Source: Hydrogenovibrio crunogenus
Lineage (GTDB): Bacteria; Pseudomonadota; Gammaproteobacteria; Thiomicrospirales; Thiomicrospiraceae
NCBI RefSeq assembly: GCF_004786015.1
Contig: NZ_CP032096.1
Coordinates: forward strand, 1,488,001 to 1,552,000
Direction: 5' to 3'
DNA: 64,000 nucleotides
Under the pieces are notes generated by a model. The model ran no database searches. It saw nothing but the letters and a program-made list of their open reading frames with translations, and had not been told where the DNA came from. Position 1 is the first letter of the stretch. Every line of letters begins with the position of its first letter. Shown here piece after piece: positions 7,241 through 58,309 of the stretch. The translations under genes and the position numbers were made by a program.

Positions 7241-8476
7241 TTAAGCTTCTTTCTTTTTAACAGACTTTCGGCCAGGCCTGGTTGTTTTAGAGACAGCTTT
7301 AGGAGATTCTCCTTCAACAACAATACGGTTTCGACCGGCTTTTTTCGCTTTATATAAGGCTTCATCAGCGGCTTTCATGACTTCTTCCGGCTTTTTAAAT
7401 TGGTCATTGCGCTCTGCCAAACCAAAACTGACTGTTACTTTGGTTTCCACAGGCTGGCCTTGTTTCTCAACCTCTAGGACACGATTTTCAATTGCTTGCC
7501 GAACAACTTCCAACGCAGGCTTCACTTGCTGAGCTTGTTTACCTTTAAACACAATGGTGAACTCTTCGCCACCATAACGATAAACCTGACCGGTTGAGAT
7601 TAAAGATAGCTCATAAGCGACCGTTCTTAACACCGCATCACCGACATCATGTCCATAGGTATCATTAAAGGACTTGAAGTGATCAATATCCATCATGGCA
7701 ATGCTGTATTTTCGACCCAGTCCCAAGAAAGATTCCAACAAAGCACGACGACCATTTAACCCCGTTAATTGGTCGGTATACGCAATGTGATGAGCATCAA
7801 AAATCAACGATAATAACAGCATCGTCGCTGCAAACGACGATACCCAGGCAATGGAACCGAACTGGTAAAAAGCATTTAAACCGAACCCCATCAAGAACAG
7901 AACAAACACCACCGTTCTATCAAGTACCTTAGGTTGGTTTAACAAGGCATTTCGCAGCATTAAAATTAGCCAAACGGAGACCATCGTAATCAAAGCTGCT
8001 TTCGATAAGTTAAGCCCGTCAATGCCAATGTTCTGAGAAATCCACTGCCAATAAGTTAAGGGCAAGTTTTCCATCACCCAGTAAACCAAATAGACTTGCC
8101 CGACCAGCAAACTCAACTGAAACAACGTATAAAACTTATCGTGGATGCCTCGCTCCGGAAAGAGTAACCAGAGCAGTAAATTAAGTGGCAGCAATATCGC
8201 CAACACTGGAAACAACGTTACCGCAGACAAGCCTGTTGATCCAGCCGGAATAAAATATTGCATACCGATATTGAAACAGACCAAACTCAACAAAATCAGA
8301 ATCGGCTGTAAACGGTTCAAAAAGATACCAACAAACACCCCTAGACCGGCAATAACATAAGGTAACCAGGGTAATAATTTTTGGGTACTAAGTGGCCACG
8401 TCAGGATATTCGGCATTTGCCAAACGGCAAATGCTGTCAACCCTAACAACCAGGTATAATGTTTCAAAAAAGCCAT
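7241..8476 (-). CDS. Membrane-bound diguanylate cyclase (GGDEF)
   Basis: 411 aa. The first ~225 residues are hydrophobic and should form six or more membrane helices. A C-terminal GGDEF domain follows: DQLTGLNGRR, then MMDIDHFKSFNDTYGHDVGD and the active-site loop YRYGGEEFTIVF, so catalysis of cyclic di-GMP synthesis from two GTP is likely. No RxxD inhibitory site is obvious just before the GGEEF loop. A basic tail (TTRPGRKSVKKKEA) ends the protein, and one CCAGGCCTGG copy encodes part of it. The membrane part resembles no sensor I can name, so the input signal is unknown. Confidence 0.9.
   Translation of the reverse strand: MAFLKHYTWLLGLTAFAVWQMPNILTWPLSTQKLLPWLPYVIAGLGVFVGIFLNRLQPILILLSLVCFNIGMQYFIPAGSTGLSAVTLFPVLAILLPLNLLLWLLFPERGIHDKFYTLFQLSLLVGQVYLVYWVMENLPLTYWQWISQNIGIDGLNLSKAALITMVSVWLILMLRNALLNQPKVLDRTVVFVLFLMGFGLNAFYQFGSIAWVSSFAATMLLLSLIFDAHHIAYTDQLTGLNGRRALLESFLGLGRKYSIAMMDIDHFKSFNDTYGHDVGDAVLRTVAYELSLISTGQVYRYGGEEFTIVFKGKQAQQVKPALEVVRQAIENRVLEVEKQGQPVETKVTVSFGLAERNDQFKKPEEVMKAADEALYKAKKAGRNRIVVEGESPKAVSKTTRPGRKSVKKKEA
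7272..7281. repeat. CCAGGCCTGG palindrome, copy 2 (in the diguanylate cyclase)
   Basis: Perfect copy near the 3' end of the membrane diguanylate cyclase gene, read as Arg-Pro-Gly. Confidence 0.9.
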
Positions 8477-36442: not shown

Positions 36443-36799
36443 GGGGATGCACTGGTTTCGACGGGGAGTACAAAGTTTAGGATGCATGTCGTGCCTGAAT
36501 GATGCACGTAAATCTTTATTTCAATTTGTTATAGTTGCAAACGACGATAACTACGCTCTAGCGGCTTAATCCCGCTAGCGCAGACTGGGAGCGTTGTTCG
36601 TGGCACCCAGTTCTGTGTCGACTCACACGGAATCGTCGGTCTCATGTGTTTGGATGAGGCTTGACTAAACTTTACAAGCTCGCTTAATGTGATCCCTGCT
36701 GGTCGGGCAGCATTAAGTTAAAATAATAGACCAAATAAACATGTAGAGCTTTAAATGGAGGCTTCTCGGACGGCGGTTCGACTCCGCCCATCTCCACCA
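36443..36799 (+). ncRNA. ssrA: Transfer-messenger RNA (tmRNA)
   Basis: Rescues stalled ribosomes with SmpB. The 5' end GGGGATGCACTGGTTTCGAC and the 3' end GGTTCGACTCCGCCCATC followed by TCCACCA form the tRNA-like acceptor stem (GGGGATG with CATCTCC, one G-U pair) and T arm. The tag reading frame at 36537-36569 encodes ANDDNYALAA then TAA, close to the E. coli ANDENYALAA. One-piece tmRNA of about 357 nt. Its 3' end is the probable attachment site of the following integrase-bearing element. Confidence 0.97.
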
Positions 36800-49186: not shown

Positions 49187-49408
49187 TATAAGATTTTTAA
49201 TCTTAGGATTTTATTCTTTGACATGCCGCCCTGCTTACAAAAAATTAGCAAAAGAGTCTTTCACTCTAAAAATACACTAGATAACTGGATTGCTAAACTT
49301 AATGAATTCCTTGAATTCAATAATGCCTTAGAGGTGACTCTGAAACCCTCTTCCTTAATACCCAGCTATTCCAGATTGATATGTGAATGAAATCGACACA
49401 TTACTTAG
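49187..49408. other. Gene-free stretch before the integron remnant
   Basis: AT-rich sequence downstream of the Lrp gene. I see no open frame with a binding site and no recognisable RNA. Confidence 0.5.
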
Positions 49409-49441
49409 ATATGTCGATAAAAAATAAAAAAATCGACATAT
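49409..49441. repeat. Inverted repeat abutting the integrase stub
   Basis: ATATGTCGAT (49409-49418) and ATCGACATAT (49432-49441) are perfect 10-bp inverted copies around an A-rich loop. A related ATCGACACA lies just upstream (near 49391). The repeat ends 3 bp from the stop that cuts the integron integrase fragment, so it may mark the deletion or insertion junction. Confidence 0.65.
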
Positions 49442-49443
49442 AA

Positions 49444-49662
49444 TCAATGTGTTAAAAACTGCTCCACTCTTTGGGACGACTCAATCAACATCGCATCACG
49501 ACTCACAAAGCCATGAAATTTCACAAATCGCTTTACCCAGTCACAATAACTGTTCTCAGTAGAAAAGGCATACCCTTCTCTGCGTAACTTACTACGCATT
49601 TCTTCTAGTAAAGATGGTTTTTTTAAGGTAGTATTTATACCATTACTCTCAGGTGTTGACAG
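49444..49662 (-). pseudogene. Integron integrase IntI, N-terminal fragment only
   Basis: On the minus strand the frame reads [20 protein letters not shown], then [20 protein letters not shown], and ends VEQFLTH followed by TGA. This is the start of the core-binding domain of IntI proteins (pattern ... GYAxxTExxYxxWxxRFxxFH ... VExFLTHLA). About 60 of the usual ~320 residues remain, and the whole catalytic domain is missing. No ATG/GTG/TTG starts the frame; a stop lies at 49666-49668 and the first candidate is CTG at 49660-49662. It is oriented away from the cassette, exactly as in an integron. Confidence 0.8.
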
Positions 49663-49813
49663 GTTTTACTTATTAATACTGAATTTTATGTCAAAAAAAC
49701 AACTTAGTCGAATATGTAAGCAAATAAACTTAAATTTAATATCAATACAAAATAACAAGGCATTAGTGCCTTATACTAAATGTTATGTTTCAAACCAACG
49801 AAAGGAGAAATCA

Positions 49814-50392
49814 ATGAAGCTTTGGAATAAGGAAGTTGGCTTGGCCATCGGCTTGCTTTTTTTTGCGGGAATTGCTAGCGCTGGAGAGTATCTTGGCCTA
49901 GGGCTAGGCGAGCAAACTATTGATCAGGTCAAGTCTTCTTTGAAAAGTGCGGAAGGTGGATTCGACGATAATTACGGATACAAAGGGTATGGGAGTGATT
50001 TACCTATAATCAAGGTTTCATACTATGAAAAATTCAATAAGTTTGGTTCCGTCAGAGAAGCATGGCTGAGTTTTTCTCCAGACAAGAAGCTTTACGATAT
50101 TTCAGTTACTTGGCAAGATGCCGGAGAAACATTCAAGACTCTAAAGGATGCGCTTGATACGAAGTATGGTGCAGCATCCCCCCAAGGCAGGGGGTTCCAA
50201 CAAGACTACAAGTACCGGGACGGCAACGTTGAGATTATTCTCAATCGAAATACATTTGGGTTTGGTAATCGACAGTCAACGTCTCTGAATTACACATTCA
50301 CGCCAGCGTTAGCAGAAGTGCGGAAAATGAAAAACCTCATTGAAGAAGACATAAAGAAAAAGAACGCAAAAAAGGCTGCATCTGACCTGTAA
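49814..50392 (+). CDS. Integron cassette gene: secreted protein of unknown function
   Basis: 192 aa from ATG 49814 with AAAGGAG just upstream; the longer frame from 49688 has no binding site and would hide the signal peptide. Signal peptide [15 protein letters not shown], probably cut after ASA. The mature part has [20 protein letters not shown] and [20 protein letters not shown], a repeating beta-alpha look recalling small periplasmic BamE/PepSY-like folds, but I recognise no family. The C terminus is Lys-rich ([17 protein letters not shown]). The stop codon touches the attC site, as cassettes do. Confidence 0.8.
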
Positions 50393-50479
50393 ACATAACA
50401 ATCGCGTAAACTCGGACTGCCCAAAGCTGCGCCGCTTCGCTTTGCAGCTTTGGGCACCCGGTTACGCGAGGCGTTAGGG
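50393..50479. other. attC recombination site (59-base element)
   Basis: 87-bp near-palindrome. R'' ends in ACATAAC (50393-50399); L'' TCGCGTAA (50402-50409); inner arms GCCCAAAGCTGC (50419-50430) and GCAGCTTTGGGC (50444-50455); L' TTACGCGA (50462-50469); R' GTTAGGG (50473-50479). The R'/L' spacing and the AAC...GTT core fit integron attC sites, although the last base of R' departs from the GTTRRRY consensus. Folded single-stranded, it gives the bulged hairpin recognised by IntI. Confidence 0.85.
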
Positions 50480-50518
50480 CTTCCGTTTTCGGCAAGAGCT
50501 GCTCTTTGAAGAGAAAAA

Positions 50519-50893
<375 letters not shown>

Positions 50894-50908: not shown

Positions 50909-53794
50909 TCACTCAGGCGCACCATCAATAAAGGTTTTGATGTAATCCAACATTTGATCCAATACGCGTTGTGAAACGCTCTTTCGTTTCAAGATCTTCG
51001 GCTTTTTATTCATGGTTTCCACCACATCATCACGATACGGTAGTTTCTCAGTAAATAGATAGCTGGAAATCAGCTTCTGGACTTTTTCCTGATCAAGGTT
51101 TTCTTCTTCACAGATACGCTTGATTGCGGTCTGATCTTGCTCTTTCCAGAATTGTTTGAAGTGCTCTTCTACCTGTCCACCGTTTTGAATCTCTGGCAGA
51201 TTTTCATGGATGAACTTTTCAATCAGTTCTTTTTTAGAACGCATGCCCACATCTCCCGAAAGCATATCGATAATGTTTTTCTTACGGGCTTCGTGTTCTT
51301 TTTCAGGGGCATCTTTCAGCTGTCCCAGTAGTTTCAAGATGTAGGTCACATTGATTTCATCTCGATGAATCAATTCTAGTTCAAAGTCCACATCATTCAG
51401 GATGGAAACCTTTTCTTTTTGACGGTCATTTTTAATGCTGTCATGAAGGTCAAGATACTTGCTGCCATAGTCGGCATATTCCTGTTCATCAATGGCTAAA
51501 TCTTCAAATTCAAAATCGGTAAAGGTGGCCAAAACGTTATAGACACGCATAAGCTCTCGATAAGCCTTGATGAAATTAAACTTGTCTTCTTCTGACGCCA
51601 AATCATTCACACTCGCCACATCAGGCGCAATACTTCTTAGCGCTTCCAAAGCCTTATTAAATTGCTCAACGTAGTTTTCATAAGGCTCCATGATAATGGT
51701 GTCTTTGGCGTTCTTGTCCGAGAACAGACCAATCGCATCATCGGTGGCTTGCTTAAGGTTTCGGAAACAGACAATGTTCCCTTGGGATTTTTTATCGCCC
51801 ATAATGCGATTCGTGCGGGAAAATGCTTGAATCAATCCATGGTATTTCAGGTTTTTATCGACATACAAAGTATTCAAAGGTTTGGAATCAAACCCGGTCA
51901 GGAACATATTCACCACCAGCAAAATATCCACTTGCTTATCTCGAACACGCTTAGCCAGTTCGTTGTAGTAGTTATAGAACGACCTGGAATCTTTGGTGGT
52001 GTATTTGGTGCCAAACATGTCATTATAGTCACCAATGTAAGATTCGAGCTTATCACGACTATGCAGGTTGACCGTCTTGCCACTCATGTCAGTGGTTTCT
52101 TCTGGAATACTGTCGTCCGCGTCTTTATCATCTTCATTGGCGGCATAACTGAATATCGTCGCCACTTTCAGATTGTGCTCGCCCGCCTCTTTTTTGACTT
52201 TAAACAAATCATAGTAACGTGTCAGCGTCTCCACCGAACTGACACACATCATTCCGGTAAACTCTTTGGCATGGGTTTTACGCTCGTGGTTGGCAATAAT
52301 GTAATCCACAATCGCTTCAATGCGCTGTGGCGACTCCATAACCTCTTTGGTATCGATGTCTTGTACTTCAAGGTCTTGAACAATATCGTGCTGCTTAAAG
52401 GTGCTGATGTATTCCACCGAGAACTTCAGCACGTTCTCATCCCGTATCGCATCGGTAATCACATACTTGTGCAAACATTCACCAAACAAATCTCTGGTGG
52501 TCCGTTTGCCCAGTTTATTGCTGGCCACGTTTTCCGCGAAGATGGGCGTACCGGTAAAGCCGAACATTTGATAATGGTTGAAGTACTCGGTGATGCGTTG
52601 ATGCGTTTCCCCAAACTGACTGCGATGGCACTCGTCAAAAATAAAGATCACATGCTTATCTTTCAGCGGCTCCATGGCCGACTTGTAACGCTCTTTCATA
52701 ATCGCCGTATTCAGCTTTTGAATCGTCGTCACAATCAGCTTGGTATCATCTCCAAACTGTTTTACCAGTTTTTGGGTGTTGTCGGTGCTGTCCACACTGC
52801 CTTCGCTGAACGAGTTAAATTCTTTGGCAGTTTGATAATCCAGGTCTTTACGATCCACACAGAACACAACTTTATCGACATTCGGCAGGTTGGTGAGGAT
52901 TTGACTGGATTTAAATGAGGTCAGCGTTTTACCCGACCCCGTAGTGTGCCAGATATAGCCATTATGAACCGAGTTTTTCACCTTATCAATAATCGCTTCC
53001 ACCGCGTAAAATTGATAAGGGCGTAACACCATCAGGATTTTATCGGTTTGGTTTAAGACAATGTATTTGGTAATCATCTTCGACAGATGACACTTTTCTA
53101 AAAAGCTCTTGGCAAAGCTTTCTAGCTGGGTAATCGCCTTATTGTCTTTATCCGACCAGAAGAACGTCTGTTTAAAGGACTGTTTGCGATTGTTGGCGTA
53201 ATACTTGGTATTCACCCCATTACTAATCACAAACAATTGGATGTATTGAAACAACCCTGCACCCGCACCGAATGAGTGACGCTGATAACGATTGGTCTGG
53301 TTAAAAGCTTCTTTAAGCTCTAACCCTCGGCGTTTTAATTCAATCTGAACCAACGGCAAACCGTTAATCAAAATCGTCACGTCATAACGGTTTTTATACT
53401 CGCCTTCCATTGTGATTTGATTGGTCACCTGGTACTGGTTTTGACACCACTCAATCTGGTCGATGAAATCGATATACAGCGTCGAGTCATCATCACGCTT
53501 TAAGTTGAACTTGTCTCGAAGGGTTTCCGCACGTTCAAAGACATTGCCTTTGTTTAAATGGTTGAGGATTTTGCTGAATTCGTTATCTGAAAAAACCGTT
53601 TTATTATGTTTTTCTAGTTGGCGTTTGAGGTTGGCTAACAGGTCGGTCTCGTTTTCAATCACAACGCGCTCATAGCCTTGGCTGGCTAACTGTGCGATTA
53701 GATTGTTTTCCAACTGCGCTTCAGATTGAAGCTGGCCGGAAAAATAAACCCCTTGTGCGTCAGCTACTTTATTTGTCATATCAACTAACTCCAA
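50909..53794 (-). CDS. hsdR: Type I restriction enzyme, R (translocase/nuclease) subunit HsdR
   Basis: 961 aa. The N-terminal nuclease domain has YDVTILINGLPLVQIELKRR (D...ExK) and EAFNQTNRYQRHSF. The SF2 helicase motor follows: YIWHTTGSGKTLTSF (Walker A), FIFDECHRSQFGE (DECH box), FGFTGTPIF, LLVVNMFLTGFDSK and GLIQAFSRTNR. It cleaves unmodified DNA after translocation, with HsdM and HsdS. Its start overlaps the NYN gene stop by 10 bp. An open frame of 418 codons on the opposite strand is a shadow. Confidence 0.96.
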   Translation of the reverse strand: MELVDMTNKVADAQGVYFSGQLQSEAQLENNLIAQLASQGYERVVIENETDLLANLKRQLEKHNKTVFSDNEFSKILNHLNKGNVFERAETLRDKFNLKRDDDSTLYIDFIDQIEWCQNQYQVTNQITMEGEYKNRYDVTILINGLPLVQIELKRRGLELKEAFNQTNRYQRHSFGAGAGLFQYIQLFVISNGVNTKYYANNRKQSFKQTFFWSDKDNKAITQLESFAKSFLEKCHLSKMITKYIVLNQTDKILMVLRPYQFYAVEAIIDKVKNSVHNGYIWHTTGSGKTLTSFKSSQILTNLPNVDKVVFCVDRKDLDYQTAKEFNSFSEGSVDSTDNTQKLVKQFGDDTKLIVTTIQKLNTAIMKERYKSAMEPLKDKHVIFIFDECHRSQFGETHQRITEYFNHYQMFGFTGTPIFAENVASNKLGKRTTRDLFGECLHKYVITDAIRDENVLKFSVEYISTFKQHDIVQDLEVQDIDTKEVMESPQRIEAIVDYIIANHERKTHAKEFTGMMCVSSVETLTRYYDLFKVKKEAGEHNLKVATIFSYAANEDDKDADDSIPEETTDMSGKTVNLHSRDKLESYIGDYNDMFGTKYTTKDSRSFYNYYNELAKRVRDKQVDILLVVNMFLTGFDSKPLNTLYVDKNLKYHGLIQAFSRTNRIMGDKKSQGNIVCFRNLKQATDDAIGLFSDKNAKDTIIMEPYENYVEQFNKALEALRSIAPDVASVNDLASEEDKFNFIKAYRELMRVYNVLATFTDFEFEDLAIDEQEYADYGSKYLDLHDSIKNDRQKEKVSILNDVDFELELIHRDEINVTYILKLLGQLKDAPEKEHEARKKNIIDMLSGDVGMRSKKELIEKFIHENLPEIQNGGQVEEHFKQFWKEQDQTAIKRICEEENLDQEKVQKLISSYLFTEKLPYRDDVVETMNKKPKILKRKSVSQRVLDQMLDYIKTFIDGAPE

Positions 53795-54447
53795 ACATCA
53801 GGCTTTGTTATCGAAGTATTTGGGATTTTTAGCGGCAATTGTGAAGCCGTCAAATGAGATTCTTTTATAAACTTATGCCAATCAGAAAGTTCCAGCAAAT
53901 CTTTGGAAACATGCCGCCTATTCCCACTTTTTACTGGAGAAACCAACCCAATACGTATTTCAGGCTTAATGGATTTTATACGTTTCAAGGCTGGCTCTAA
54001 ATCGGAGTCATTAGTACATAAAACAATTTGTTCACATTGACCAGATAACGCATCGCACGCTATATCAACGGCTAAATTAACATCGCTTTTCTTTTCCTCA
54101 AAATGATGCACTTTCACCTTATCAAAAGGTTCATCTACCCTTCTTTTCACAGGCGTTGTCGCAATCATTTTGCCTTCAATGATAGATACTTGATGGGGAT
54201 ACCGTTTTCGCAGTGCTTGCAGATATTGTCTTTGTCGTTGAACGGAGTTTGGATCATCACACATTCTTCCCAAGACAGGTGCCGTGTAATATTTAAGATG
54301 AATAAGTTCAGATTCTTGAGGATTAAGTATTTCAACCTGAAATAGAGAATGAATATCTAACCACTTAAATTCGGTTTTTCTCAATAACCCGTAATATAAG
54401 TTATACCCATCAATATAGACAATCGTTTTTAAGATTTTAATAGACAT
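53785..54447 (-). CDS. NYN-domain (LabA/DUF88-type) putative RNase
   Basis: 220 aa PIN-like fold: TIVYIDGYNLYYGLLRK (first Asp and Asn), KKSDVNLAVDIACDAL and VLCTNDSDLEPALKRI provide the acidic metal-binding residues. Such proteins are predicted metal-dependent RNases, some in defence loci. Being inside the hsd operon and overlapping hsdR suggests it works with, or guards, the restriction system (inference). Confidence 0.88.
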   Translation of the reverse strand: MSIKILKTIVYIDGYNLYYGLLRKTEFKWLDIHSLFQVEILNPQESELIHLKYYTAPVLGRMCDDPNSVQRQRQYLQALRKRYPHQVSIIEGKMIATTPVKRRVDEPFDKVKVHHFEEKKSDVNLAVDIACDALSGQCEQIVLCTNDSDLEPALKRIKSIKPEIRIGLVSPVKSGNRRHVSKDLLELSDWHKFIKESHLTASQLPLKIPNTSITKPDVWS

Positions 54448-54464
54448 TTCAATACTCTATAAAT

Positions 54465-54491
54465 GACAAAGCCACCCGAAGGTGGCTTGTC
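54465..54491. terminator. Hairpin upstream of the NYN gene
   Basis: GACAAAGCCACC pairs with GGTGGCTTGTC around CGAA, with one bulged A. Located between the Abi-like gene and the NYN-hsdR pair, it could reduce read-through to hsdR. Confidence 0.65.
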
Positions 54492-54626
54492 TCCTTAAGA
54501 GCGAACAAGCTAAACTTGACGGTCATAAGGGCTGTTAAAACTAATTATACCCGAAATAACAATTTTGTAAACACCGCAGACTAATCAAATTCATTCATTA
54601 ATCGAATTAAAGGATGGTCTGTTTTT

Positions 54627-54720
54627 CACACAAACATCTTTTGTTATAAGTCTTGTTTAAAGACTCTGTTTGTTCTAAATTGACCAGGCTTGGTAGTTTT
54701 TGCTTAAGCAATTTAATCTG
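54627..54720 (-). pseudogene. Decayed second copy of the hsdS 3' end
   Basis: 54627-54693 matches the last ~70 bp of hsdS (55549-55617) with scattered substitutions and small gaps, starting with the identical CACACAAACATCTT that covers its stop codon. On the minus strand it still reads LVNLEQTESLNK, comparable with the hsdS end NQAWSILEQTKAFKKG. Even the palindrome is preserved with one change (CCAGGCTTGG). It is no longer part of any open frame. Confidence 0.8.
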
Positions 54721-54739
54721 ACTCTTTATGGTTTTGAAA

Positions 54740-55540
54740 TTATTTTGCTTGGTTACAGGCATTTATTAGAACTTGATTATTTCCATAAGCCAAAGGTTTG
54801 AAAAAACCTAATTCTGTCTGCCAATTATATAAACACTGTTCATCTAGCGCTTCAAACAACGCAAAACTTTCTACAAGTTCAGTAATATGTGCCAAATTTT
54901 CAGCATGTACATAATAGAAAAATAATACCAATTCAAATTTTGAAAGCTGTGAGTGAAGTAAATTTAAAGCGAACTCTCTGTCTTCAGCTTCAAGGAGTTC
55001 TTTGTTTTGTTTCATTAGAATTAAAATGTTTTTAATTATCTCCAAAAATCTTAACTCCTTACGAACAAGATGTAACTCGAGGTTTATTTTTGTGTGTTCA
55101 GGATCTGCATTTTTTATTTTTGGATTTATATGATTATTTTCATCCGAAAAGGTTATTCCTGCGTTTTTAAACGTATCAAGAAAATAAGATATTGCTTCTA
55201 CACCACTATGTTTTTGCTCACCATAATGAAATGTAAAATCCTCAACAGCATTTTTGTGTAAATTGACTAATTGAAATAAACAAGATTGAAACCTATCTAA
55301 ACGAGAGTTTTTTTGGAGTGCCTCTATTTGTTTTTGTTGTAGAAAAATTGTCTTTAAGAGTACGACAAAAGCCACCCCTGAAAACAAAGCACTTAACATC
55401 CCATAGCTGCCACCTAACTGCGCAGCCTTTTCAACTGAAAAATCATTAATGGGCCATGTTACAAACACAATTGCTATACCAAAAAAAATTATTAGCAACA
55501 CAACAAAAGGGATGAATAACCATAAACTTATATTTTTCAT
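54740..55540 (-). CDS. Putative abortive-infection membrane protein (putAbiC-like)
   Basis: 266 aa from ATG 55540; a TTG five codons upstream would overlap the hsdS stop. Two N-terminal membrane helices (LWLFIPFVVLLIIFFGIAI; GGSYGMLSALFSGVAFVVLL), a short coiled coil (QKQIEALQKN) and a helical cytoplasmic domain with FQSCLFQLVNLHKNAVEDF and LFFYYVHAENL. The layout matches the putative phage abortive infection family PF16872, assigned by memory only. It lies directly after hsdS in the operon. Confidence 0.65.
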   Translation of the reverse strand: MKNISLWLFIPFVVLLIIFFGIAIVFVTWPINDFSVEKAAQLGGSYGMLSALFSGVAFVVLLKTIFLQQKQIEALQKNSRLDRFQSCLFQLVNLHKNAVEDFTFHYGEQKHSGVEAISYFLDTFKNAGITFSDENNHINPKIKNADPEHTKINLELHLVRKELRFLEIIKNILILMKQNKELLEAEDREFALNLLHSQLSKFELVLFFYYVHAENLAHITELVESFALFEALDEQCLYNWQTELGFFKPLAYGNNQVLINACNQAK

Positions 55541-55547
55541 CTGCAAC

Positions 55548-56741
55548 TCACACAAACATCTTCTGCAATAAGCCTTTTTTGAAGGCTTTGGTTTGCTCTA
55601 GGATTGACCAGGCCTGGTTAATTTTTTGGTCGATTTCGGTTAGGAAATTGGCGATTTTTTGTTGTTCTTCAACACACGGAAATAAACCAAATATCTTTTC
55701 AATTTCTTTTTTACTAATCTCTGGGAATGTTGAGCCACTCGCTTTTCTAACAAATAACTTTCGATTTTGGATTATCCAGTAATAAACAAATTCATTATTA
55801 TTCTCTTCATTTACCACTATTGACTGGAAGCCCTGATTAGTTGCACATTCTCGGGTCGAAATTGCTATATCAGCAATAGTTGCTCTGGTCGTTAGAAGCA
55901 AAGTCCCTTTAGGGAGAATTTTTGCCGATGACTTCTTTAACCCCTCATTTGAAATAGAGCGAACACTAAAGCCCATGTATTTTTGTTTGATTTCTGTTGG
56001 TGTAAACCACTGTATATCACCATTCCAATATTCTGCTTTCGTCGTTTCGGGCGTACCGCCTCCTATGATAGCCCCCAACTTAGCTATACTTTTCCTATCC
56101 CACTCAGGATAGTCATTGCCATTGTCGTCTTTAAAGCGGATTTGTTGGCTGAAGACTTGTTGCATGACACCTTTTTTGTAGTCGGTGAGCAGGCGGTGTT
56201 TTTCGGTGAGCTGTTCGATTTTTTTGTCCACCAAACTTAAAAAATCAGCGATTTTTTGTTGTTCTTCCTTGGAAGGGATACATAACTTCAGGTTTTTTAC
56301 AATTTTTGCTGATAAATTACCTTGTCCGCCTTGCAAGTATGTCTTTAATATTCTTGGCTTATTTTTTATGAGCCAGTCTTTTAGGAAAATTTTATTTTCT
56401 TGTGTCCTAATGCATAATACAGCCTGATTTATAGCTCCATTTAGCTTTGAAATAGCCACTTCACCGCTAGTTGCACCATATAGCGCATATAGAAGGTCTC
56501 CAGTTTCTACTAGCTTTGCAGATGAACCATTCAAAGCATCTTCCGTTATGAATTGGTCAACTGAATCGGAACCAATTTTCCCCGAGCCAATAAATGGAAT
56601 ATTACCTTCATATAAATTTTTGTTGGTACTTGTTGGCGTACCTCCTGAAAAAAAGTTTCCTAACTCCCCAACTTGCTTTTTACTCCAAGCCTCAGAAAAC
56701 TCAGAAAATCTAAGTTCAGGCACAATCTTAACTTCACTCAT
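55548..56741 (-). CDS. hsdS: Type I restriction specificity subunit HsdS
   Basis: 397 aa with two target-recognition domains, each starting from the GGTP motif (NFFSGGTPTST and AIIGGGTPETT). They are separated by the central conserved helix IADFLSLVDKKIEQLTEKHR and closed by the C-terminal IANFLTEIDQKINQAWSILE. Sets the bipartite recognition sequence. Its ATG overlaps the hsdM stop by 1 bp. The 3' end carries a CCAGGCCTGG copy and has a decayed duplicate 0.9 kb downstream. Confidence 0.95.
   Translation of the reverse strand: MSEVKIVPELRFSEFSEAWSKKQVGELGNFFSGGTPTSTNKNLYEGNIPFIGSGKIGSDSVDQFITEDALNGSSAKLVETGDLLYALYGATSGEVAISKLNGAINQAVLCIRTQENKIFLKDWLIKNKPRILKTYLQGGQGNLSAKIVKNLKLCIPSKEEQQKIADFLSLVDKKIEQLTEKHRLLTDYKKGVMQQVFSQQIRFKDDNGNDYPEWDRKSIAKLGAIIGGGTPETTKAEYWNGDIQWFTPTEIKQKYMGFSVRSISNEGLKKSSAKILPKGTLLLTTRATIADIAISTRECATNQGFQSIVVNEENNNEFVYYWIIQNRKLFVRKASGSTFPEISKKEIEKIFGLFPCVEEQQKIANFLTEIDQKINQAWSILEQTKAFKKGLLQKMFV
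55608..55617. repeat. CCAGGCCTGG palindrome, copy 8 (in hsdS)
   Basis: Perfect copy near the hsdS 3' end, read as Gln-Ala-Trp. The surrounding ATTGACCAGGCCTGGT is shared with the intergenic copy at ssrA. Confidence 0.9.
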
Positions 56742-58309
56742 TAAAACGGCGCCTCAATTCCAAGCTGTTTACAGTAATCGGCAATCACCGCATCGGTCTG
56801 TTGCATCTCTTTATCAATGACTTTGATTTGTTGCGTCACCGCCGTTAAATCAATCGGCTCTTCTTCCTCGAAGGTATCCACGTATCTTGGAATATTGAGG
56901 TTGTAGTCGTTTTCTTTAATTTCATCGAGTGAGGCGACATAACTGTATTTATCACAGGTTTCTCGGTTGTGATAGGTGGAGACAATTTTCTCGATATGCT
57001 CAGGCTTTAAAGTATTCTGGTTTTTGTTTTTTTCAAACTCATTGGAGGCATCAATAAACAGAATGTCGTCAGGATTAGTCCGGCATTTTTTAAACACCAA
57101 AATACAGGTGGGAATACTGGTGCCATAGAAGATATTGGCAGGTAAACCAATGACCGCATCCAGATAGTTGCGGTCTTCAATCAGGTATTGGCGGATATGG
57201 CCTTCTGCCGCGCCACGAAATAACACGCCATGCGGTAATACCACTGCCATAGTGCCGTTATCGGCCAAGTGGTGAATCATGTGTTGGACAAAGGCAAAAT
57301 CGGCTTTGGTTTTGGGCGCGAGTTTGCCGTATTGTGAAAAACGGTCATCACTTAAAAACAGTGGGTTCGCTGACCAGTGTGCCGAGAACGGTGGGTTGGC
57401 GACAATGGCTTCGAACTGTTGGCCTAGGTGATGCGGGTGCTCCAGCGTATCGTCCTGGCTGATGTCGAACTGCTTGTAGTTCACATCATGCAAAATCATA
57501 TTCATGCGCGCCAAGTTGTAGGTGGTTCGGTTAAGCTCTTGGCCATAAAAATGACCGACTTCTTTGACTTCTTTCGACACCCGTAACAACAATGACCCTG
57601 ACCCGCAGGTTGGATCATACACAGACTTTAAGTAGTTTTTATCGTCGGTGACGAGTTTAGCGAGAATGGTGGAGACGGTTTGCGGGGTATAAAACTCTCC
57701 GGCTTTTTTACCGGCACCGGAGGCAAACTGTCCAATCAAGTATTCATAAGAATCCCCTAACACATCGGCATTGGCGTTTTCCAGCTGAAAATCGACCTTA
57801 TCCAAGTGCAAAAGGATTTTAGACACCAGCTCATTTTTTTGCTTTTCGGTTTTACCCAGCTTGCTAGAGTTAAGATCGAGGTCTTCAAACAATTTATTGA
57901 AGTCGTCCTCGGACTCGGTGCCCATGGTGGATTGTTCAATATTGTTAAGAATGGTTTGAAGCTCACCCAGAATAAAGTTGTCAGTGGATTCGCCCTCAAT
58001 CGCCGCGCCTTTTTTGGCAATGGCTGAGAACAGCTCGGAAGGCTTTAGAGTGTAACCGAGTTTTTCAATCGCTTCATCGGCCACCGCCGCTACGATTTCA
58101 GCGCCTTCTTCAGAATGCTCATCGACTGTGGCGTAATCAAAATCGTCTTCTAGGGTATTGGCGTAAAGGCAAAGTTTTTCAGAGAGGTATTTGTAAAAGA
58201 TAAACCCTAAAATGTAATCCCGAAATTCATCGGCATCCATTTTGCCACGCAAGGCGTTGGCGATATTCCATAATTGTTGTTCGAGTAACTTTTTTTCTTC
58301 TTCTGACAT
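56741..58309 (-). CDS. hsdM: Type I restriction-modification methyltransferase subunit HsdM
   Basis: 522 aa N6-adenine methyltransferase. Helical N-terminal domain (QLWNIANALRGKMDADEFRD), SAM motif VYDPTCGSGSLLLRV near residue 235 and catalytic NPPF in EAIVANPPFSAHW. First gene of the operon. The 5' region is AT-rich and shows no clear promoter by eye. Confidence 0.97.
   Translation of the reverse strand: MSEEEKKLLEQQLWNIANALRGKMDADEFRDYILGFIFYKYLSEKLCLYANTLEDDFDYATVDEHSEEGAEIVAAVADEAIEKLGYTLKPSELFSAIAKKGAAIEGESTDNFILGELQTILNNIEQSTMGTESEDDFNKLFEDLDLNSSKLGKTEKQKNELVSKILLHLDKVDFQLENANADVLGDSYEYLIGQFASGAGKKAGEFYTPQTVSTILAKLVTDDKNYLKSVYDPTCGSGSLLLRVSKEVKEVGHFYGQELNRTTYNLARMNMILHDVNYKQFDISQDDTLEHPHHLGQQFEAIVANPPFSAHWSANPLFLSDDRFSQYGKLAPKTKADFAFVQHMIHHLADNGTMAVVLPHGVLFRGAAEGHIRQYLIEDRNYLDAVIGLPANIFYGTSIPTCILVFKKCRTNPDDILFIDASNEFEKNKNQNTLKPEHIEKIVSTYHNRETCDKYSYVASLDEIKENDYNLNIPRYVDTFEEEEPIDLTAVTQQIKVIDKEMQQTDAVIADYCKQLGIEAPF

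Follow-up and report, generated by a model that had tools for sequence, protein, structure and literature searches.

A decayed chromosomal integron in Hydrogenovibrio crunogenus with a truncated integrase gene, one intact cassette and its attC site

A gene cassette that lies beside a broken integron integrase gene raises the question of what is left of the integron and whether the cassette can still move. Such a locus occurs in a 64-kb stretch of the Hydrogenovibrio crunogenus chromosome (here called the window; positions 1488001-1552000 of a single-contig genome of 2,453,259 bases, G000), which an initial annotation had interpreted as a decayed integron whose one intact cassette is now locked in place. 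We consider it very likely that the locus is a decayed chromosomal integron of the integrase lineage resident in the Hydrogenovibrio/Thiomicrorhabdus family, with a dead intI gene and an array cut by insertion sequences (ISs), in which attI, the first cassette and its attC site have been kept and on which a second integrase could act in trans.

The integrase gene ends after codon 64

49447..49638, minus strand: IntI stub, codons 1-64 of an integron integrase of ~326 codons, with ATA in place of the ATG start and a TGA directly after FLTH

The minus-strand frame at 49444-49662, whose translation comprises 72 amino acids and a stop codon, had been read as the N terminus of an integron integrase pointing away from the cassette gene, and profile searches agreed with this reading. 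The frame matched positions 1-52 of the 315 positions of the TIGR02249 integron integrase profile (E = 2.6e-7), as well as NF011946 (E = 5.6e-7) and the Pfam N-terminal SAM-like domain Phage_int_SAM_4 (E = 4.5e-9), and the stub was 61-78% identical to the integrases of relatives over 64 residues. In the PDB, the stub profile matched only Vibrio cholerae IntI4 (2a3v; E = 1.8e-4), an enzyme of ~320 residues, whereas the stub represents the N-terminal ~60 residues only. While the integrase identity of the frame stood, the integrase part proper is confined to 49447-49638, and the start codon, which is ATG (Met) in nine relatives, has also been lost, a change that the initial annotation did not report.

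The absence of the integrase after the FLTH motif was likewise borne out. DNA homology stops at nucleotides 189-193 of the 978-nucleotide intI gene, and no trace of the remainder past codon 64 was found in the 64-kb window; with homology to 64 of 326 residues, a full-length intI with the catalytic tyrosine recombinase domain is absent from the locus. Since the catalytic domain is missing, the locus's own enzyme would be unable to capture or release cassettes. Given that the 63 codons shared with a relative (L024) differ at synonymous sites far more than at nonsynonymous sites (pS of 0.58 and pN of 0.11), we infer that the gene was under constraint through most of its history and was broken rather recently. 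No full-length ancestral intI was found at this locus, so that deletion in place is the more probable course, and the arrival of an already broken gene the less probable one.

An attI site and exact cassette borders survive

about 49743..49785, plus strand: predicted attI of the resident integrase clade, from an alignment of relatives; block CAATAC..ATAACAAGGCA-N4-TGCCTTATACTAAATGTTA, core GTT at 49782-49784
49783..50473, plus strand: gene cassette 1, 691 bp, from the attI core to the core of its own attC
49814..50392, plus strand: cassette 1 gene, 192 amino acids, with a signal-peptide-like N terminus by eye and TAA at 50390-50392
50393..50479, plus strand: attC, 87 nucleotides; R'' ACATAAC at 50393-50399, L''/L' stem with extrahelical bases, R' GTTAGGG at 50473-50479

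An alignment of the region upstream of intI in six relatives revealed strong conservation of a block that ends with TGCCTTATACTAAATGTTA or a near-variant, and this block is intact in sequence at the stub locus, where it adjoins the intI stub. Searches with the attI pattern found 22 sites in 15 of 94 genomes, all within the Hydrogenovibrio/Thiomicrorhabdus family, and a reversed control version of the pattern found 0 sites in the 94 genomes. Several genomes (G026, G030, G045 and G022) carried two or three copies, some without an integrase detected alongside; these are probably further relic integrons. On a contig of Hydrogenovibrio sp. SC-1 (L057), an attI upstream of position 8001 appears to be fused to an attC (ATAACAAGGCAAATTCACTCGGAC...) with an integrase stub adjoining, and the same contig carries a second integrase stub.

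Cassette 1 runs from the T of the GTT core (49782) to the G of the attC core (50473). Counted from the core, its initial nine bases, GTTATGTTT (49782), are complementary at 9 of 9 positions to AAACATAAC (50391) at the beginning of its own attC, and each of these sequences occurs once in the window. The same rule held in other arrays, with complementary runs of 6-10 bases in six of the seven cassettes checked, those six being in this genome's complete array; a cassette in G182, a genome of another bacterial family, had a run of only 4 bases.

The TAA of the cassette gene ends at 50392 and the R'' box starts at 50393, so the description of a stop codon abutting an 87-bp attC was exact. To score this site, we built a covariance model (R1) from 14 attC sites of other loci, with the window's site held out; its alignment contained the attC arms only, as a MAFFT alignment of full attC sites was too loose for a model. 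The model matched 50393-50479 with 46.9 bits (E = 6.4e-9), the sole match in the window at an E value of ≤10 and the top R1 score in the 2.45-Mb genome, and all four boxes attributed to the site (the R''/R' and L''/L' arms) were present. By a simple stem score, the site reached 40.4, and none of 30 dinucleotide-shuffled versions of the window exceeded 39.1. An Rfam scan gave no family matches at the attC, and we know of no Rfam family for attC sites. With attC on the plus strand and intI on the minus strand, the locus has the standard integron orientation. The stub, the predicted attI, the exact cassette borders and the held-out attC match together upheld the proposed decayed integron platform.

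The cassette gene has a relative in another family's array

In G182 (L073), a relative shares 81% identity with the cassette 1 protein and sits inside a cassette array, with attC sites before and after it. At the DNA level, similarity to the G182 array begins at 49879, continues past the stop codon into the attC and stops at 50478, no more than five bases from where the cassette ends. As judged from these sequences, cassette 1 is a real mobile cassette. Comparison of the two genes gave a pN of 0.15 and a pS of 0.92; given this saturation of synonymous sites alongside few amino acid changes, the protein is under strong constraint, which may be older than the capture of the gene at this locus.

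The cassette 1 protein had no match in Pfam, NCBIfam or the PDB, searches for viral relatives found none, and a structure predicted for the protein alone was unusable (pLDDT of 41). Given that a good ribosome-binding site precedes the gene and that its product reads as a functional exported protein, the gene is probably still expressed.

Insertion sequences cut the array short

50474..50617, plus strand: 5' part of a second cassette, with an ORF from 50519 and no attC of its own left
50564..50851, minus strand: IS3-family transposase fragment and IS ends (NF033516, E = 3.9e-9), which cut the second cassette short

The second cassette ends in remnants of IS3-type and other insertion sequences, and the IS sequence at 50564..50851 is repeated elsewhere in the genome. 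Its ORF had no relatives in 369 genomes of the class. The initial annotation was thus right about one intact cassette and overlooked this truncated second cassette, the surviving predicted attI, the exact cassette borders and the cassette homologue in G182.

Directly to the right of the IS remnants, 50909-58309 was read by eye as type I restriction-modification genes (HsdR, HsdS and HsdM). Elsewhere in the window, a tmRNA gene lies at 36443-36799 (Rfam RF00023, 198 bits).

A complete integron lies on the same chromosome

The same chromosome carries a full-length integrase gene at 1453423-1454385, 84 kb from the stub locus, which scored 484.9 bits against a cutoff of 265 over 1453441-1454385 and has an array of coding and noncoding cassettes on its other side. 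In a phylogenetic tree, this integrase paired with that of G045, a genome of another genus in the family, at 100/100 support (83% identity), and the pair fell outside the clade formed by the usual integrases of the family together with the stub; as the stub fills only 19% of the alignment columns, the tree assigns it to the resident clade as a whole and to no particular branch. Three further attC model matches lie in a row at 1104776-1105954 with no integrase nearby, which on sequence grounds is an integrase-less cassette cluster, and a lone attC match lies at 1201482.

Because of this second, complete integron, the locking of cassette 1 does not follow from the loss of its own integrase, and the claim that the cassette is locked is unsupported as it was stated. 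That no integrase in the cell can act on the cassette has a probability that we put slightly short of even. In addition to the death of the local enzyme, this idea draws on the identity of only 50-53% between the intact integrase and those of the resident clade and on the occurrence of the attI pattern just once in this genome, at the stub; against it stand the presence of a full-length second IntI and the established use of attC sites across different integrases. Integrases accept many attC sites and are choosier about attI. For this reason, the window's attC would be expected to be a usable target in trans, whereas excision of cassette 1 (attI × attC) would also require the second integrase to accept a foreign attI, which we think unlikely. 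Our preferred reading is thus that the decay of a native integron, in which intI lost its start codon and everything past codon 64 and the array was broken off behind its first cassette by IS debris, would have left a nearly fixed cassette whose attC still looks usable.

The left flank and the origin of the locus

The left break was less informative. The region at 49190-49450 had no copies elsewhere in the genome and no convincing plasmid match, and no repeated or mobile sequence was found in it. A search of relatives for a full-length intI at the same locus found none: the left-flank gene, an Lrp-type regulator, was found in a single congener (G004), without an intI match beside it.

This limited distribution of the flanking gene leaves room for the alternative that the stub, attI and cassette were moved here by rearrangement from another chromosomal site, with no decay in place. 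In G003, moreover, a full-length intI of the resident type lies right beside genes that flank the other, complete integron in G000, which also speaks for such a move. Since the left edge bears no repeat or mobile sequence and the junction itself is uninformative, we regard this alternative as unlikely and favor decay in place.

Integrases of the resident clade are often broken

Half of the 20 resident-clade integrase loci (19 from the search of relatives plus the window locus) were full length and half were broken, 3 by a frameshift or stop codon and 7 by large deletions; sequencing errors may account for frameshifts in draft genomes. Related species thus hold integrases of a single clade in intact, point-mutated and truncated form. 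The broken copies of relatives often keep only the first 40-65 codons.

Because relatives carry more fragments reduced to the N terminus than fragments reduced to the C terminus (roughly 5-8 to 2), we considered whether the stub is retained by selection as the holder of the cassette promoter (Pc), which would make the locus a fixed expression platform. This skew is weak, however, and the N terminus had served as the seed of the first search. The stub does contain a promoter-like TTCACA-N16-CACAAT at 49520-49547, but such matches were no more frequent than in shuffles, and a comparison of 12 integrases revealed no excess synonymous conservation in codons 31-40, which ranked 207th of 316 windows. 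No conserved Pc element was found inside the stub by these analyses, so this lead was not sustained, and selection for a promoter is a weak possibility that we judge very improbable.

A broader scenario is that the family's native integron lineage is repeatedly lost and replaced by another integrase lineage, with relic attI-cassette pieces persisting as fixed, expressed platforms. Both genomes in which the second integrase type was seen (G000 and G045) hold a wrecked native-type intI; we nevertheless regard the scenario as speculative and rather improbable.

Relation to known integrons

In a survey across bacteria, nearly one-third of intI genes were pseudogenes and multiple intI genes occurred in more than one-fifth of the lineages with integrons; a genome was also described in which the functional intI and the pseudogene belonged to different clades (Nemergut et al. 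2008, PMC2426708). The window locus resembles the sedentary chromosomal integrons with intI pseudogenes of that survey in having a broken intI beside cassettes; it differs from them in that its attI and attC have been resolved along with the cassette borders and in that decay recurs inside one family, with 10 of the 20 loci examined being damaged.

The view that chromosomal integrons are little described in sulfur-oxidizing gammaproteobacteria was only partly right, as Hydrogenovibrio integrons have already been tabulated: in an IntegronFinder table, H. crunogenus SP-41 has one complete integron together with three CALINs (integrase-less clusters), and H. thermophilus has a complete integron (PMC10295459, Table 1). 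The SP-41 entry broadly resembles the complete array, the 1.10-Mb cluster and the 1.20-Mb lone site found here, although the table gives no coordinates or cassette detail. Like a CALIN, the window locus has an attC-bearing cassette without a working integrase; unlike one, it keeps a predicted attI and an intI stub, and its single attC and 64-codon stub place it below the two attC sites by which CALINs are defined there (PMC10295459).

Since intI pseudogenes and multiple intI genes have been reported (PMC2426708) and Hydrogenovibrio integrons are listed (PMC10295459), the window locus exemplifies, in well-preserved form, a process that was already known, and a single locus alters no general view. 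It is nonetheless an unusually clear fossil, in that all recombination borders are readable and the captured gene can be traced to another family's array. Because of these properties and the coexistence of intact and damaged integrases of one clade, the family is well suited to asking why integrons are gained and lost.

A short noncoding cassette type

A short noncoding cassette type was also observed, in which the cassette start pairs with its own R'' box to make a hairpin, followed by an attC with 13- to 15-bp terminal repeats (TAACGGGSTGSSG...). Three copies lie in the complete array of G000 (L011, 13119-13242, 11885-12008 and 10102-10225), and the type is also found near attI in several Thiomicrorhabdus genomes (L048, L050, L052, L056 and L111); it accompanies two different integrase lineages.
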